Below are positions 41,393 through 50,696 of a stretch of 64,000 nucleotides of DNA, in pieces; position 1 is the stretch's first letter, and every line of letters starts with the position of its first letter. The position numbers were made by a program, and so were the translations under genes. The DNA comes from Alkalicoccus halolimnae (lineage in GTDB: Bacteria > Bacillota > Bacilli > Bacillales > Salisediminibacteriaceae), in assembly GCF_008014775.2 (NCBI RefSeq), contig NZ_CP144914.1, positions 1,302,001 to 1,366,000 on the forward strand, in the 5' to 3' direction. The notes under the pieces were generated by a model. The model had not been told where the DNA came from, searched no databases, and saw nothing but the letters and a program-made list of their open reading frames with translations.

Positions 41393-42286
41393 ATGGATGA
41401 GTTTATGCGTGAACTATATCAGGATAGAACGGGAGATCCGCAGACGCTGGCAGTAATTGTTGTAGAGAAATCCAAAATGGAAGATGCAGCTACAGATTAT
41501 TTTGATGGTATCCTTTTAGTCATAAAAGATAAAACAAGTAAAGCATGGGAAATTAAACATTATGAATATAAAGATATGACGATCGCAATGCATATTGTTA
41601 ATACTACGCAGATTAACGAATGGCTCGCAAACAGTTCAAATCGGAGAGCAATCGACTGGCTGCTTAACGGGAAAATCATTTTTGACCGTAATGAATATAT
41701 GAAAAATTTCAAAGAGAAAATGATCACTTTTCCGGAGAAGGAGAGGGAGTCCCGGATCGGGATAGAGTTTTCTAAGCTGGTCAGGCGTTTTTCTGATGGA
41801 AAGTCTCTCTATTATGAAGGACATTATCTGGATTCTTTCAATCAAATTGTTCATGCTCTTCATCATTTAGCCAGACTAGCTGTCATTGAGCGCGGGTATC
41901 ATCCTGAAGTAACTGTCTGGCAGCAGGTGCGTCAAATCGAACCCGAGATTCACAAACTTTATTCCGAACTTGTTACTGGCACAGAGCCAATCGATAAAAG
42001 GCTCGAACTTCTTCTGTTGGCAAATGAATTCGAGCTGGCTACGAAAGTAAGGTTAGGGAGTGCTCATCTAATTTCAATTATGAATGAAAAGCACGACGCC
42101 TGGAATGTGGATGAACTTAAAGAAAGGGTTGCTATGCATGATTACTCTCTTGATTTAAGTATGCTGCTTGAATATTTAGTTAAAAAAGGACTGGTGGATA
42201 TTAAATTAGAGGAAACGAAAGGAAGAACAATCAATCATCGGAAATATATTGCTAATTCCTACCAGGATATGGCAGCCTCCCGCTAA
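41393..42286 (+). CDS. ygxA: YgxA nucleotidyltransferase-like protein
   Basis: A 297-residue protein conserved immediately upstream of the rRNA operon in Bacillus. The N-terminal half resembles a nucleotidyltransferase fold (YFDGILLVIKD, WLLNGKIIFDRNEYM). The middle is helical (HYLDSFNQIVHALHHLARLAVIERGYHPEVTVW) and the C-terminus is winged-helix-like. Activity unproven. GGGAGGAGGG precedes the ATG. Confidence 0.86.
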   Translation: MDEFMRELYQDRTGDPQTLAVIVVEKSKMEDAATDYFDGILLVIKDKTSKAWEIKHYEYKDMTIAMHIVNTTQINEWLANSSNRRAIDWLLNGKIIFDRNEYMKNFKEKMITFPEKERESRIGIEFSKLVRRFSDGKSLYYEGHYLDSFNQIVHALHHLARLAVIERGYHPEVTVWQQVRQIEPEIHKLYSELVTGTEPIDKRLELLLLANEFELATKVRLGSAHLISIMNEKHDAWNVDELKERVAMHDYSLDLSMLLEYLVKKGLVDIKLEETKGRTINHRKYIANSYQDMAASR

Positions 42287-42305
42287 CGAGCTGGAGGCTT
42301 TTTTC
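42274..42305 (+). terminator. Terminator overlapping the end of ygxA
   Basis: AGCCTCC and GGAGGCT pair around a loop that contains the ygxA stop codon, followed by six T. Confidence 0.85.
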
Positions 42306-42580
42306 GATAATGACTTGTAATGTTTACGAACTATAAAGAATTTCAGCTCTTTTTTCCAATGTTAATGTTTGGAGAATCATATCGCATTTCTGTGAATAAC
42401 ATTGAAGGTTATTGAAGGTTTATGATGATAGTTTTCCCGTAAGCTGAATTTTCAAGTTCATTGATTTTTATGTTACTAACGATTTACTGTACTTTCAGCT
42501 GTTTATCCTTCGTTTTCTATGTGCCCCATAAAGAGGACACCTTAAATGACGATCTTTTTTAAAGTTTTTCTTTAAACGTA

Positions 42581-42705
42581 TTGCAAAGTCTGAATTTATT
42601 ATGCTATATTAATAATCGTCGCTGAAGCCGATTGGTAGCAACCGGCGATGAGAACAAACAAAATTATATAAACATATTGACTCGAACTGTCAGTAATGGT
42701 ATATT
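42581..42705 (+). promoter_or_regulatory. Tandem rRNA promoters P1 and P2
   Basis: P1: TTGCAA (42581-42586), 18 bases, TATATT (42605-42610). P2: TTGACT (42677-42682), 17 bases, TATATT (42700-42705). The 95-bp spacing between -10 boxes is typical of tandem rrn promoters in Bacillus. The remaining 42306-42580 stretch is A/T-rich with no gene seen. Confidence 0.75.
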
Positions 42706-42742
42706 AATTAAGTCGCCAAAAACAGGCGGCGCTGTGATTTGC

Positions 42743-42763
42743 CCTTTGAAAACTAAACAAAAG
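42743..42763 (+). other. 16S processing stem, 5' arm
   Basis: CCTTTGAAAACTAAACAAAAG pairs, with a few mismatches, with 44514-44534 behind 16S. This is the long precursor stem that RNase III cuts in Bacillus rRNA. Confidence 0.7.
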
Positions 42764-42890
42764 ACGATTGTGAAGGAAAAAAGAGAATGAATCATTCTCT
42801 GTCAATTTATTATTAAAGAATCTTTAGCCAGATTCAGTTTTGAAAGCGAAGCATCCCGCTTCGCGATGTCAGAAGTTCAAACTTCGACGA

Positions 42891-44470
<1,580 letters not shown>

Positions 44471-44528
44471 AAGGAGCTCGAGTAAGCTCACTTATCGATT
44501 CCTTCCTTTCGTTCTTTTGTTTAGTTTT

Positions 44529-44613
44529 GAGAGGGTTAATACCTCTCGGCCGGCTCTTTTTTTTCGGCTTTCTTCTGCTTTGCAGAAGAAAAAAGGAAAA
44601 AAGAAAGACGGCC
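44529..44613 (+). other. 16S-23S spacer hairpins
   Basis: The spacer has no tRNA. GAGAGG/CCTCTC forms one small hairpin at 44529-44547. A long pyrimidine-rich arm ending TTTCTTCTGC (to 44577) pairs with a purine-rich arm starting GCAGAAGAAA (44582) out to GGCC at 44609-44613, giving an imperfect stem of about 30 bp. Confidence 0.6.
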
Positions 44614-44626
44614 CGCAAGCCTCTGT

Positions 44627-44646
44627 CCTTTGAAAACTGGATAACG
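44627..44646 (+). other. 23S processing stem, 5' arm
   Basis: CCTTTGAAAACTGGATAACG pairs with 47782-47801 behind 23S, forming the precursor stem from which 23S is cut. Confidence 0.7.
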
Positions 44647-44787
44647 TAATGTATGAACAATCAATCACCGGAAACAAGGTCTATTGGTCCGGGGTGCGCC
44701 CCGTGACGAAGAAACGAGTTTCCGAGTGTCTTAGAATATCGCCAAGACGATCGAATGACGTCCACTGCCTCCCTCAGGGAGGCAGCT

Positions 44788-47733
<2,946 letters not shown>

Positions 47734-47781
47734 AAAAAAGAAGATGATTCGAAGACACCGATTGAAGGGTTCATACACCCC

Positions 47782-47801
47782 CGTTATCCAGTTTTGAGAG
47801 G
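47782..47801 (+). other. 23S processing stem, 3' arm, where 5S would be expected next
   Basis: CGTTATCCAGTTTTGAGAGG is the inverse of the 44627-44646 arm. In ordinary Bacillus operons a 5S gene follows this spacer. Here only 27 bases remain before tRNA-Asn. Confidence 0.7.
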
Positions 47802-47828
47802 ATAGTATCTCAATTATTATTTTAATAA

Positions 47829-47903
47829 TCCACAGTAGCTCAGTGGTAGAGCAATCGGCTGTTAACCGATCGGTCGTAGGTTCGAATCCTACCTGTGGAG
47901 CCA
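47829..47903 (+). tRNA. tRNA-Asn (GTT)
   Basis: Cloverleaf with acceptor TCCACAG/CTGTGGA, anticodon GTT and encoded CCA. First of 14 tRNAs, 95 bases after 23S. Confidence 0.97.
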
Positions 47904-47906
47904 TCT

Positions 47907-47999
47907 GGAGAGCTGTCCGAGTGGCCGAAGGAGCACGATTGGAAATCGTGTAGGCGGTTTTAACCCGTCTCGAGGGTTCGAATCCCTCGCTCTCCGCCA
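47907..47999 (+). tRNA. tRNA-Ser (GGA)
   Basis: Class II tRNA with long variable arm, acceptor GGAGAGC, anticodon GGA and encoded CCA. Confidence 0.97.
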
Positions 48000-48003
48000 G
48001 AAT

Positions 48004-48078
48004 GGCCCGTTGGTCAAGTGGTTAAGACACCGCCCTTTCACGGCGGTAACACGGGTTCGAATCCCGTACGGGTCACCA
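48004..48078 (+). tRNA. tRNA-Glu (TTC)
   Basis: Acceptor GGCCCGT, anticodon TTC within CGCCCTTTCACGGCG, encoded CCA. Confidence 0.97.
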
Positions 48079-48120
48079 TTACTTACTTCTAAACTTAAAG
48101 ATGAAAAAACATATTAAAAT

Positions 48121-48196
48121 GGAGGATTAGCTCAGTTGGGAGAGCACCTGCCTTACAAGCAGGGGGTCGGCAGTTCGAGCCTGTCATCCTCCACCA
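48121..48196 (+). tRNA. tRNA-Val (TAC)
   Basis: Acceptor GGAGGAT, anticodon TAC within CTGCCTTACAAGCAG, encoded CCA. Confidence 0.97.
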
Positions 48197-48209
48197 TATT
48201 TAATATTAC

Positions 48210-48286
<77 letters not shown>

Positions 48287-48297
48287 CTTACATATTT

Positions 48298-48373
<76 letters not shown>

Positions 48374-48380
48374 CTAATGT

Positions 48381-48456
<76 letters not shown>

Positions 48457-48462
48457 TTTCTC

Positions 48463-48491
48463 TTGACGATAAAAAATCCCTTTGGTAAGAT
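48463..48491 (+). promoter_or_regulatory. Possible internal promoter in the tRNA array
   Basis: TTGACG (48463-48468), 17 bases, TAAGAT (48486-48491), in the unusually long 92-base gap before tRNA-Tyr. Confidence 0.45.
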
Positions 48492-48548
48492 AATTTTTAT
48501 CTTGAAGGTTTGTATGTAAATACGTACAAATTATTGTTAGGAAAACAT

Positions 48549-48633
48549 GGAGGGGTAGCGAAGTTGGCCAAACGCGGCGGACTGTAAATCCGCTCCTTCG
48601 GGTTCGGGAGTTCGAGTCTCTCCCCCTCCACCA
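48549..48633 (+). tRNA. tRNA-Tyr (GTA)
   Basis: Class II tRNA with long variable arm, acceptor GGAGGGG, anticodon GTA, encoded CCA. Confidence 0.97.
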
Positions 48634-48647
48634 TTTTTATCTGATAT

Positions 48648-48724
48648 GGCGGTTGTGGCGAAGTGGTTAACGCACCGGATTGTGATTCCGGCATTCGTGG
48701 GTTCGATTCCCATCAGCCGCCCCA
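48648..48724 (+). tRNA. tRNA-His (GTG)
   Basis: The extra 5' G (G-1) opposite C73 is encoded. Anticodon GTG within CGGATTGTGATTCCG, CCA encoded. In B. subtilis tRNA-Trp lies before it; here it is absent. Confidence 0.96.
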
Positions 48725-48730
48725 CTACAT

Positions 48731-48805
48731 AGGGCTATAGCCAAGCGGTAAGGCATCGGATTTTGATTCCGTGACCCGCAGGTTCGAATCCTGCTAGCCC
48801 TGCCA
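48731..48805 (+). tRNA. tRNA-Gln (TTG)
   Basis: Acceptor AGGGCTA/TAGCCCT, anticodon TTG within CGGATTTTGATTCCG, encoded CCA. Confidence 0.96.
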
Positions 48806-48817
48806 TTTTCAAACGAT

Positions 48818-48892
48818 GCGGGAATAGCTCAGTGGTAGAGCACCACCTTGCCAAGGTGGGGGTCGCGGGTTCGAATCCCGTTTCCCGCTCCA
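48818..48892 (+). tRNA. tRNA-Gly (GCC)
   Basis: Acceptor GCGGGAA, anticodon GCC within CCACCTTGCCAAGGTGG, encoded CCA. Confidence 0.97.
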
Positions 48893-48902
48893 TATATTTT
48901 AA

Positions 48903-48976
<74 letters not shown>

Positions 48977-49010
48977 TTTTTGTATCACGAACTTACAAAT
49001 ACTGGTATTT

Positions 49011-49100
49011 GCCGGGGTGGTGGAATTGGCAGACACACAGGACTTAAAATCCTGCGGTAATTGTATTACCGTGCCGGTTCGAGTCCGGCCCTCGGCACCA
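49011..49100 (+). tRNA. tRNA-Leu (TAA)
   Basis: Class II tRNA, acceptor GCCGGGG, anticodon TAA, encoded CCA. Confidence 0.96.
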
Positions 49101-49125
49101 AATCACTCATAAATTAATCAGTGCG

Positions 49126-49210
49126 CCGGAGTGGTGGAATGGCAGACACGTTGGACTCAAAATCCAATGCCTTCACGGGCGTACGGGTTCAAGTCCCGTC
49201 TCCGGTACCA
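49126..49210 (+). tRNA. tRNA-Leu (CAA)
   Basis: Class II tRNA, acceptor GCCGGAG with a G1-U72 pair, anticodon CAA within TTGGACTCAAAATCCAA, encoded CCA. Last gene of the array. Confidence 0.96.
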
Positions 49211-49227
49211 AAACTAATACATCTCAG

Positions 49228-49251
49228 AAGCAGCAGAAGCTGCTTTTTTTG
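49228..49251 (+). terminator. Terminator of the rRNA-tRNA operon
   Basis: AAGCAGC-AGAA-GCTGCTT followed by T7. The rest of the gap to 49544 is A/T-rich and shows no supported gene. Confidence 0.88.
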
Positions 49252-49544
49252 TTGTTTAATAAGTTTGACACGTTTATAAAGAAATAGTAAGCTTTTTAAG
49301 ACTAAAGCACTTGAAATATTTACTCAGGAAATGAAATAAAACAGTTTCACATATAAATTTCATATTTATGTAATCGAAAGCAATTAGATTGTGATTCCCA
49401 AAGTTTCTGCTGCTTCCCATCCGCAGCGCACTCTTTTTGAAAGTAAGAGTGATATAAGAACCTTTGAAATAGGATATTTGAATTATTTTAATATAATCCT
49501 AAAGCGAAAAGACAATGTGAAATATTTAAAGGGGAGGAGGAAAG

Positions 49545-50696
49545 ATGTCCAGCCAATTTAAAAATGAGATTATTGAATTCAGCAGGAAAATAGGTATAGA
49601 TAAGATAGGATTTGCTCCTGCAGATCCCTTTGTCACGATGAAGGAACGCCTGCGGATTCAGCAGGAAAAAGGTTATGCTTCGGGATTTGAAAAAGGAAGT
49701 CTTGAAGAACGTACAAATCCGGACCTTCTTCTTCCGGAAGCTAAAACAATCATTTCAATTGCACTTGCTTACCCGTCTAAAATGAAAGATGCTCCGCGTT
49801 CTGTAAAAGGAGACCGCCGGGGAATTTTCTGCCGTGCAAGCTGGGGAGAAGATTATCATCATGTTTTAAGGAGAAAGTTGAAGCAGGTGGAGGAATTTAT
49901 TCTTCAGAAAGATCCTCGTGCCAGATGCAAAGAAATGGTAGATACCGGGGAGCTCCCGGACCGTGCAGTAGCTGAAAGAGCAGGCATAGGATGGAGCGGT
50001 AAAAATTGTGCGATTATCACTCCGGAATTTGGTTCCTATGTGTACCTGGGAGAAATGATAACAACAATTTCTTTTGAGGAAGATGTGCCTCTGGAAGAAC
50101 AGTGCGGAACCTGTAACAAATGTGTAGACGCATGCCCTACAGGCGCACTTGTGCAGGGAGGACAGCTGGACGCAACGAAATGCATTGCTTTTTTAACTCA
50201 GACAAAAACCATGCTTCCCAAGCAGTATAGAAAAAAATTGGGCAACAGACTCTACGGGTGTGATACGTGTCAAACAGTCTGTCCGGAGAATAAAGGAGTA
50301 GATGAACACCGGCATCCTGAAATGGAACCCGATCCTGAAATAGTTAAACCTCAGCTCGAGCCGCTGCTTACCATGTCAAACAGAGAATTTAAAGAAAAGT
50401 TCGGACGGATTTCCGGTTCGTGGAGAGGGAAAAAACCTATTCAAAGAAATGCAATAATTGCACTCGCAGTTTTTAAGGAAAAAGCTTCATTGCCGGTACT
50501 TACGAAGCTCATGCATGAGGATCCAAGACCTGTTATACGTGGGACTGCAGCCTGGGCTCTTTCTGAAATCGAAAACAGCGAAGATATTTATAAGGAAATT
50601 GATAAAGCAGGTAGTAACGAAAATAATGAAGAGGCAAAAACAGAAATGGAGAACGCGTTATCTTTTATGAAGAATGCCGGTGAAAAGAGTTATTAA
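49545..50696 (+). CDS. queG: Epoxyqueuosine reductase QueG
   Basis: QueG reduces epoxyqueuosine to queuosine in the wobble position of tRNA, using cobalamin and two iron-sulphur clusters. The 383-residue protein shows RAVAERAGIGWSGKNCAI, the ferredoxin motifs CGTCNKCVDACPTGAL and CDTCQTVCPENK, and a C-terminal HEAT-like repeat region (IQRNAIIALAVFKE, VIRGTAAWALSEI). GGGGAGGAGG precedes the ATG. It opens the queG-ogt group, comparable to B. subtilis yhbA. Confidence 0.94.
   Translation: MSSQFKNEIIEFSRKIGIDKIGFAPADPFVTMKERLRIQQEKGYASGFEKGSLEERTNPDLLLPEAKTIISIALAYPSKMKDAPRSVKGDRRGIFCRASWGEDYHHVLRRKLKQVEEFILQKDPRARCKEMVDTGELPDRAVAERAGIGWSGKNCAIITPEFGSYVYLGEMITTISFEEDVPLEEQCGTCNKCVDACPTGALVQGGQLDATKCIAFLTQTKTMLPKQYRKKLGNRLYGCDTCQTVCPENKGVDEHRHPEMEPDPEIVKPQLEPLLTMSNREFKEKFGRISGSWRGKKPIQRNAIIALAVFKEKASLPVLTKLMHEDPRPVIRGTAAWALSEIENSEDIYKEIDKAGSNENNEEAKTEMENALSFMKNAGEKSY

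Follow-up and report, generated by a model that had tools for sequence, protein, structure and literature searches.

In the rRNA operon at 42892-49210, the 16S and 23S genes are complete and are followed by 14 tRNA genes, but a 5S gene is missing. Plain coordinates count within the window, the whole stretch of 64,000 nucleotides that was analyzed, which corresponds to positions 1302001-1366000 of the single 3694897-base contig of this genome (labelled G000). The loss of 5S from the operon is real; it is not a recent slip and very probably not an assembly error. The explanation in which we have high confidence is that a likely functional operon lost its 5S gene once, before Alkalicoccus radiated, and that 5S rRNA is supplied by six other operons and by an older orphan 5S gene.

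Organization of the operon and absence of 5S

All window features described in this section lie on the plus strand. The operon is located between a YgxA-like gene, which marks the locus just upstream (41393-42286; PF14540, PF22339, and PF18576 above cut-off), and queG downstream (49545-50696; TIGR00276, 414 bits), which was used for locating the locus in relatives. It is preceded by a leader (42737-42891) that is common to the other operons, with 98.7%-100% identity over at least 155 nt in 6/6 cases. The 16S (42892-44468; RF00177, 1611 bits) and 23S (44788-47734; RF02541, 2981 bits) rRNA genes are in canonical order, are both full length, and are each 99.9%-100% identical to the six other copies. 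The 23S processing stalk is retained, with 19/20 positions paired between its 5′ arm (44627-44646) and its 3′ arm (47782-47801) and a folding energy of -26.6 kcal/mol. The first tRNA gene, tRNA-Asn, starts at 47829, 27 bases past the 3′ arm. The first-pass annotation had described both the intact arm and this short distance, and we found them as described. ARAGORN identified the 14 tRNA genes (47829-49210) as Asn, Ser, Glu, Val, Met, Phe, Thr, Tyr, His, Gln, Gly, Cys, Leu, and Leu, and detected no tRNA in the 16S-23S spacer (44469-44787). In another operon of the same genome, near 105 kb (L199), two segments of the 16S-23S spacer that match the window operon are separated by ~215 nt, compared with ~90 nt in the window.

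The spacer between 23S and tRNA-Asn (47734-47828), where a 5S gene is expected, is 90%-94% identical to those of the six other operons over its first 72 nt and ends its resemblance just past the stalk, at ~47805; beyond these 72 nt, no match to the six was found. Because the leader and both rRNA genes are nearly identical to those of its siblings, and because the 3′ likeness ends just past the stalk, the operon is in step with them up to the 5S site. It is most likely functional and would be transcribed and processed to rRNA, although the shared leader is an indirect sign of this.

Rfam models at gathering score matched the 16S, the 23S, and the tRNAs of the window, and the 5S model (RF00001) had no match anywhere in it. 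The 5S also remained unmatched in 42000-50500 when the threshold was loosened to an E of 10. The orphan 5S was additionally aligned locally, on both strands (10 tests), with five spacers: 23S-Asn, Glu-Val (48079-48120), Thr-Tyr, the 330 bases that follow the tRNA cluster, and 16S-23S. All scores were at shuffle level, with 71 to 298 of 300 shuffles scoring as high; in a positive control, a 5S-bearing stretch scored 174, whereas its best shuffle reached 24. Neither these alignments nor the Rfam searches (E up to 10) revealed a concealed or degraded 5S in the operon. The absence of 5S noted in the first-pass annotation, which covered the 16S-23S spacer, the tRNA gaps, and the region after the tRNAs, was thus confirmed for the operon and for every gap tested.

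The whole contig contains seven 23S 3′ ends and seven 5S genes. By coordinates, six of these 5S genes sit ~123 to 133 nt past the six other 23S ends, and none sits beside the 23S of the window. The operon is therefore of the 5S-less type, with 16S and 23S but without the downstream 5S that the other operons carry.

Distribution in Alkalicoccus and in other genera of the family

The genus sample comprised eight genomes (G000-G007, with G005 and G006 being MAGs), and the locus was readable in seven of them, the G003 sequence breaking off at tRNA-Thr. A 5S gene between 23S and tRNA-Asn was absent in all seven. G000, G002, G004, G005, and G006 had no 5S at either site in the cluster, and G001 and G007 had an intact 5S between tRNA-Glu and tRNA-Val, three tRNA genes downstream, at the gap that is free of 5S in the window. 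The earlier proposal of a clean loss from one operon thus stands as far as this genome is concerned, since each of the six other 23S genes adjoins a 5S, but the loss is not private to it, and in two of the genomes a 5S is found further downstream. The 165-nt Glu-Val gap of G002 contains no 5S remnant. This gap was examined as a possible 5S relic and rejected. Its right part, from ~position 57 on, is similar to a repeat that occurs in spacers throughout the family.

The exact pattern of a 23S end followed after 85 to 115 nt by tRNA-Asn occurred in 5/8 genus genomes and 0/27 other family genomes; clusters missed by it were read through other searches of the tRNA cluster and the flanking locus. 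Across one genome per species (84,980 species, a set that may leave out the window's own genome), the pattern was found on four contigs, which belong to A. saliphilus, A. urumqiensis, an Alkalicoccus MAG, and a Bacillus sp. MAG. A looser tRNA pattern matched 7 of 397 genomes of the order, four of them Alkalicoccus; it needs an 85-115 nt gap and a certain D-loop, missed G001, is blind to operons broken in drafts, and says nothing outside that geometry. The three matches from elsewhere were taken as chance, with no 23S end in their loci.

A tree of 25 genes, with two outgroups and with partial data for G005 and G006, grouped G001 with G007 (99.4/99) and set this clade against G000 and G002-G006 (94.8/92). 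An earlier 9-gene tree had left the genus root undecided. In the 25-gene tree, G003 grouped with G002 (99.7/98). A constraint that joined the five known 5S-less genomes without G003 was rejected (AU 0.011), which is compatible with a single loss because G003, whose locus is broken at tRNA-Thr, groups with G002.

Outside the genus, 27 genomes were searched, of which five gave no matching cluster; counts were made by hand from printed maps. Among the 30 family loci (L123-L152), 22 (L123-L144, one per genome) had the matching Asn-Ser(GGA)-Glu cluster and eight had other tRNA clusters. A 5S gene directly preceded tRNA-Asn in 20 of the 22 matching clusters, and the 23S end was also in view in 15 of these. 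Of the remaining two, the G019 cluster ends at a contig edge. The other (L132; G023:C1:1387841-1388366) has neither 23S nor 5S in the 1.5 kb upstream, and its rRNA genes seem to have been lost or relocated.

The tRNA order had been likened to that of a Bacillus operon with a 5S between 23S and tRNA-Asn. Bacillus subtilis rrnD, which has ygxA upstream and a similar tRNA order, differs from the window operon in carrying 5S at this position. The order also agrees with that of the other family members, but the window cluster lacks tRNA-Asp and tRNA-Trp (sites 48287-48297 and 48634-48648), as do the six other readable genus clusters; by hand count, they are present in 18/22 and 16/22 matching clusters of other genera, respectively.

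The orphan 5S unit and the supply of 5S

The seventh 5S gene of the genome is an intact orphan (419472-419588 of the contig; L001 1501-1617, 94.6 bits), located 930 kb from the window operon together with tRNA-Asn and tRNA-Thr(GGT). There is no 23S end upstream of it in L001, and no rRNA end probe matches within 7.4 kb upstream in L097. The orphan was found in 8/8 genus genomes without a 23S end in at least 1.3 kb upstream, and with the same tRNAs in five other genera (g2, g3, g5, g6, and g7). Among the 20 orphan-unit stretches fetched outside the genus, 14 had 5S before Asn-Thr(GGT) and six did not. No 23S end was present in at least 2.3 kb upstream in 13 of the 14; the contig of the fourteenth (G034, g8) stops within the 5S gene. 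The orphan also occurs in G027 and G029, where 1.5 kb of upstream sequence was in view. All six stretches without it belong to genus g4 (6/6 examined), and in three of these (L163, L170, and L171, from G015, G013, and G014) one or two additional tRNA-Asn genes stand where the orphan would be. The presence of the orphan in all eight genomes of the genus and in five further genera shows that it is older than the loss from the operon.

The gene counts agree between 5S and 23S in the genome of the window (7/7) because the orphan supplies the seventh 5S. Counts were obtained for 11 of the 27 family genomes, with 74 candidates scored per genome and with G010, G011, G022, and G030 consisting of 2 or 3 contigs. 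In genera of the orphan type, the 23S/5S counts were 7/8 in G011, G022, G031, and G033, 11/12 in G012, 6/7 in G023, G029, and G030, and 6/8 in G010. The 5S number therefore exceeds the 23S number by one in eight of these nine genomes, the orphan itself not having been viewed in G023 and G030. In g4, whose examined members have no orphan, the counts were 10/10 in both G015 and G018.

A promoter-like sequence, TTGTCA...TAGTAAGAT, precedes the orphan 5S. The general pattern TTG..A-(17-19)-TA..AT was present upstream of the orphan in 8/8 genus genomes, compared with 45 of 4000 shuffles of the upstream stretches; a stricter pattern, devised once the sequences had been inspected, was present in 8/8 and in 0/4000 shuffles. 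The orphan unit may have a promoter of its own. By eye, a T run follows within a few bases of the orphan 5S (L001:1618-1627) in all eight genomes, and the transcript might end there, before tRNA-Asn.

The orphan, relocated, and operonic 5S genes look like working genes. In helix I of 18 chosen genes of these three kinds, 162/162 cells were paired, with 22 double changes, counts that are inflated by relatedness and refer to a helix defined from one of the 18 genes. In controls, shuffles averaged 89.7% paired cells and slid versions 20%-57%. A compensated pair separates the relocated from the operonic 5S of G007, and the relocated 5S of G001 shows, within the aligned gene, one helix I difference from an operonic 5S of G001. 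The genome also encodes RNase M5 (170 bits, cut-off 111) and a Mini-III-like protein, a 140-aa gene product with an RNase III domain by Pfam only and with no NCBIfam match at E 1e-10. This gene lies between cysS and rlmB, the place of Mini-III in Bacillus.

In Bacillus, the stalk is cleaved by Mini-III and the tRNA is released by RNase P. We infer that the window operon is transcribed and processed in the same manner: the transcript would give 16S, 23S, and tRNAs but no 5S, Mini-III would cleave the intact stalk to form the 23S end, RNase P would free tRNA-Asn, and the RNase M5 step would be omitted for this transcript. The 5S for seven 16S/23S sets would then be drawn from the six other operons and from the orphan 5S-tRNA-Asn-tRNA-Thr unit with its putative separate promoter. 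Judging from the age of the orphan and the gene counts, this buffering by the orphan is probably the reason why the loss was tolerated. A broader reading, which we regard as rather unlikely, is that the lineage is part-way in moving its 5S supply from rRNA operons to stand-alone units: an orphan with its own promoter would have made operonic 5S dispensable, one operon would have dropped it, and another clade would have come to hold 5S behind three tRNA genes, off the 23S.

An equal supply of 5S and 23S is usually credited to co-transcription. Across the readable members of Alkalicoccus, one operon yields no 5S, and a gene placed elsewhere makes up the number; this is a natural case, and the sister clade and the outgroups show other states, so that selection on 5S dosage and on 5S linkage can be tested in nature, beside the deletion work in Escherichia coli. 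Operons without 5S are already known; the present one, which is genus-wide and has a sister state in which the 5S is relocated, is a variant of these. Operon III of Halothermothrix orenii, likewise one of several rRNA operons in a Firmicute, has 16S and 23S without 5S (PMC2626281). It differs in carrying tRNA-Ile between 16S and 23S, which is absent in the window operon, and the passage that describes it is silent on relatives and on any orphan or relocated 5S (PMC2626281). Francisella has an orphan 5S that is likewise unlinked and conserved in the genus beside complete operons, but there 5S is in surplus (3+1 vs three 23S) (PMC3479022), whereas in the genome of the window the orphan levels the count. 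A 5S surplus occurs in >20% of bacterial genomes, and deletion of 5S genes in E. coli has a marked cost (PMC7283268; PMC4330394). These cases share with Alkalicoccus a natural mismatch of 5S and 23S numbers and show that 5S gene loss is costly in E. coli; in Alkalicoccus, however, one operon is naturally short of 5S and a stand-alone 5S makes up the number. In the open-access literature, judged from titles and abstract starts, nothing was found on a 5S-less operon of Alkalicoccus.

History of the loss

Since the spare orphan predates the loss, a lineage with a spare 5S would have lost the 5S beside the 23S of one operon before the genus radiated. Two finer histories of this event were considered. 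The first has perhaps an even chance of being right. Here, the 5S of the genus ancestor left its place ahead of tRNA-Asn for one behind tRNA-Glu, for instance through duplication of a 5S-Asn-Ser-Glu block followed by loss of the outer parts, and was then kept in the clade of G001 and G007 and lost in the other clade. This history accounts for the intact 5S at Glu-Val in two genomes that form a clade, and the change from 5S-Asn-Ser-Glu to Asn-Ser-Glu-5S can be read as a circular permutation of one block. Yet it needs as many steps as loss followed by regain, and the Glu-Val gaps of the window and of G002 hold no 5S remnant.

The second history is plausible, though somewhat short of an even chance. 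The ancestor would have lost the 5S outright, and the clade of G001 and G007 would later have acquired a 5S and the adjoining tRNA-Val from an operon of the 5S-tRNA-Val type. In G007, 8 nt separate the relocated 5S from tRNA-Val (CATTATAT); the same holds, by model coordinates, in G001, and the spacing is similar in 5S-Val operons of G000 (TTTAATAT) and G022 (CTTTATAT). The likeness of these spacers is weak, because ATAT before tRNA-Val is also found in outgroup operons that have no 5S there (CATATAT in G016 and G018). The closeness of the relocated 5S of G001 to an operonic 5S of that genome, one helix I position apart, also fits a regain, but gene conversion can account for such likeness. 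We lean slightly toward relocation first.

Under either history, the 5S beside the 23S would have disappeared before the genus radiated. rRNA operons are repeats, from which a 5S could have been collapsed during assembly, but the genome is a single contig, and other species have a like junction in their assemblies, each species with a different spacer, making such an artifact very improbable. A recent deletion private to the strain would fit the retention of 5S in the six other operons but is scarcely credible given an absence common to all readable genus genomes.

The orphan 5S cluster also contains four tandem ~120-nt repeats between tRNA-Gln and tRNA-Lys (L097:10388-10826; G000:C1:422387-422825). 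The repeat had no Rfam match at E up to 1, and all 17 genus matches to one copy (in 5/8 genomes) lie inside the orphan 5S cluster. Distant relatives of the repeat were found in other rRNA/tRNA spacers across the family, where it could aid recombination.
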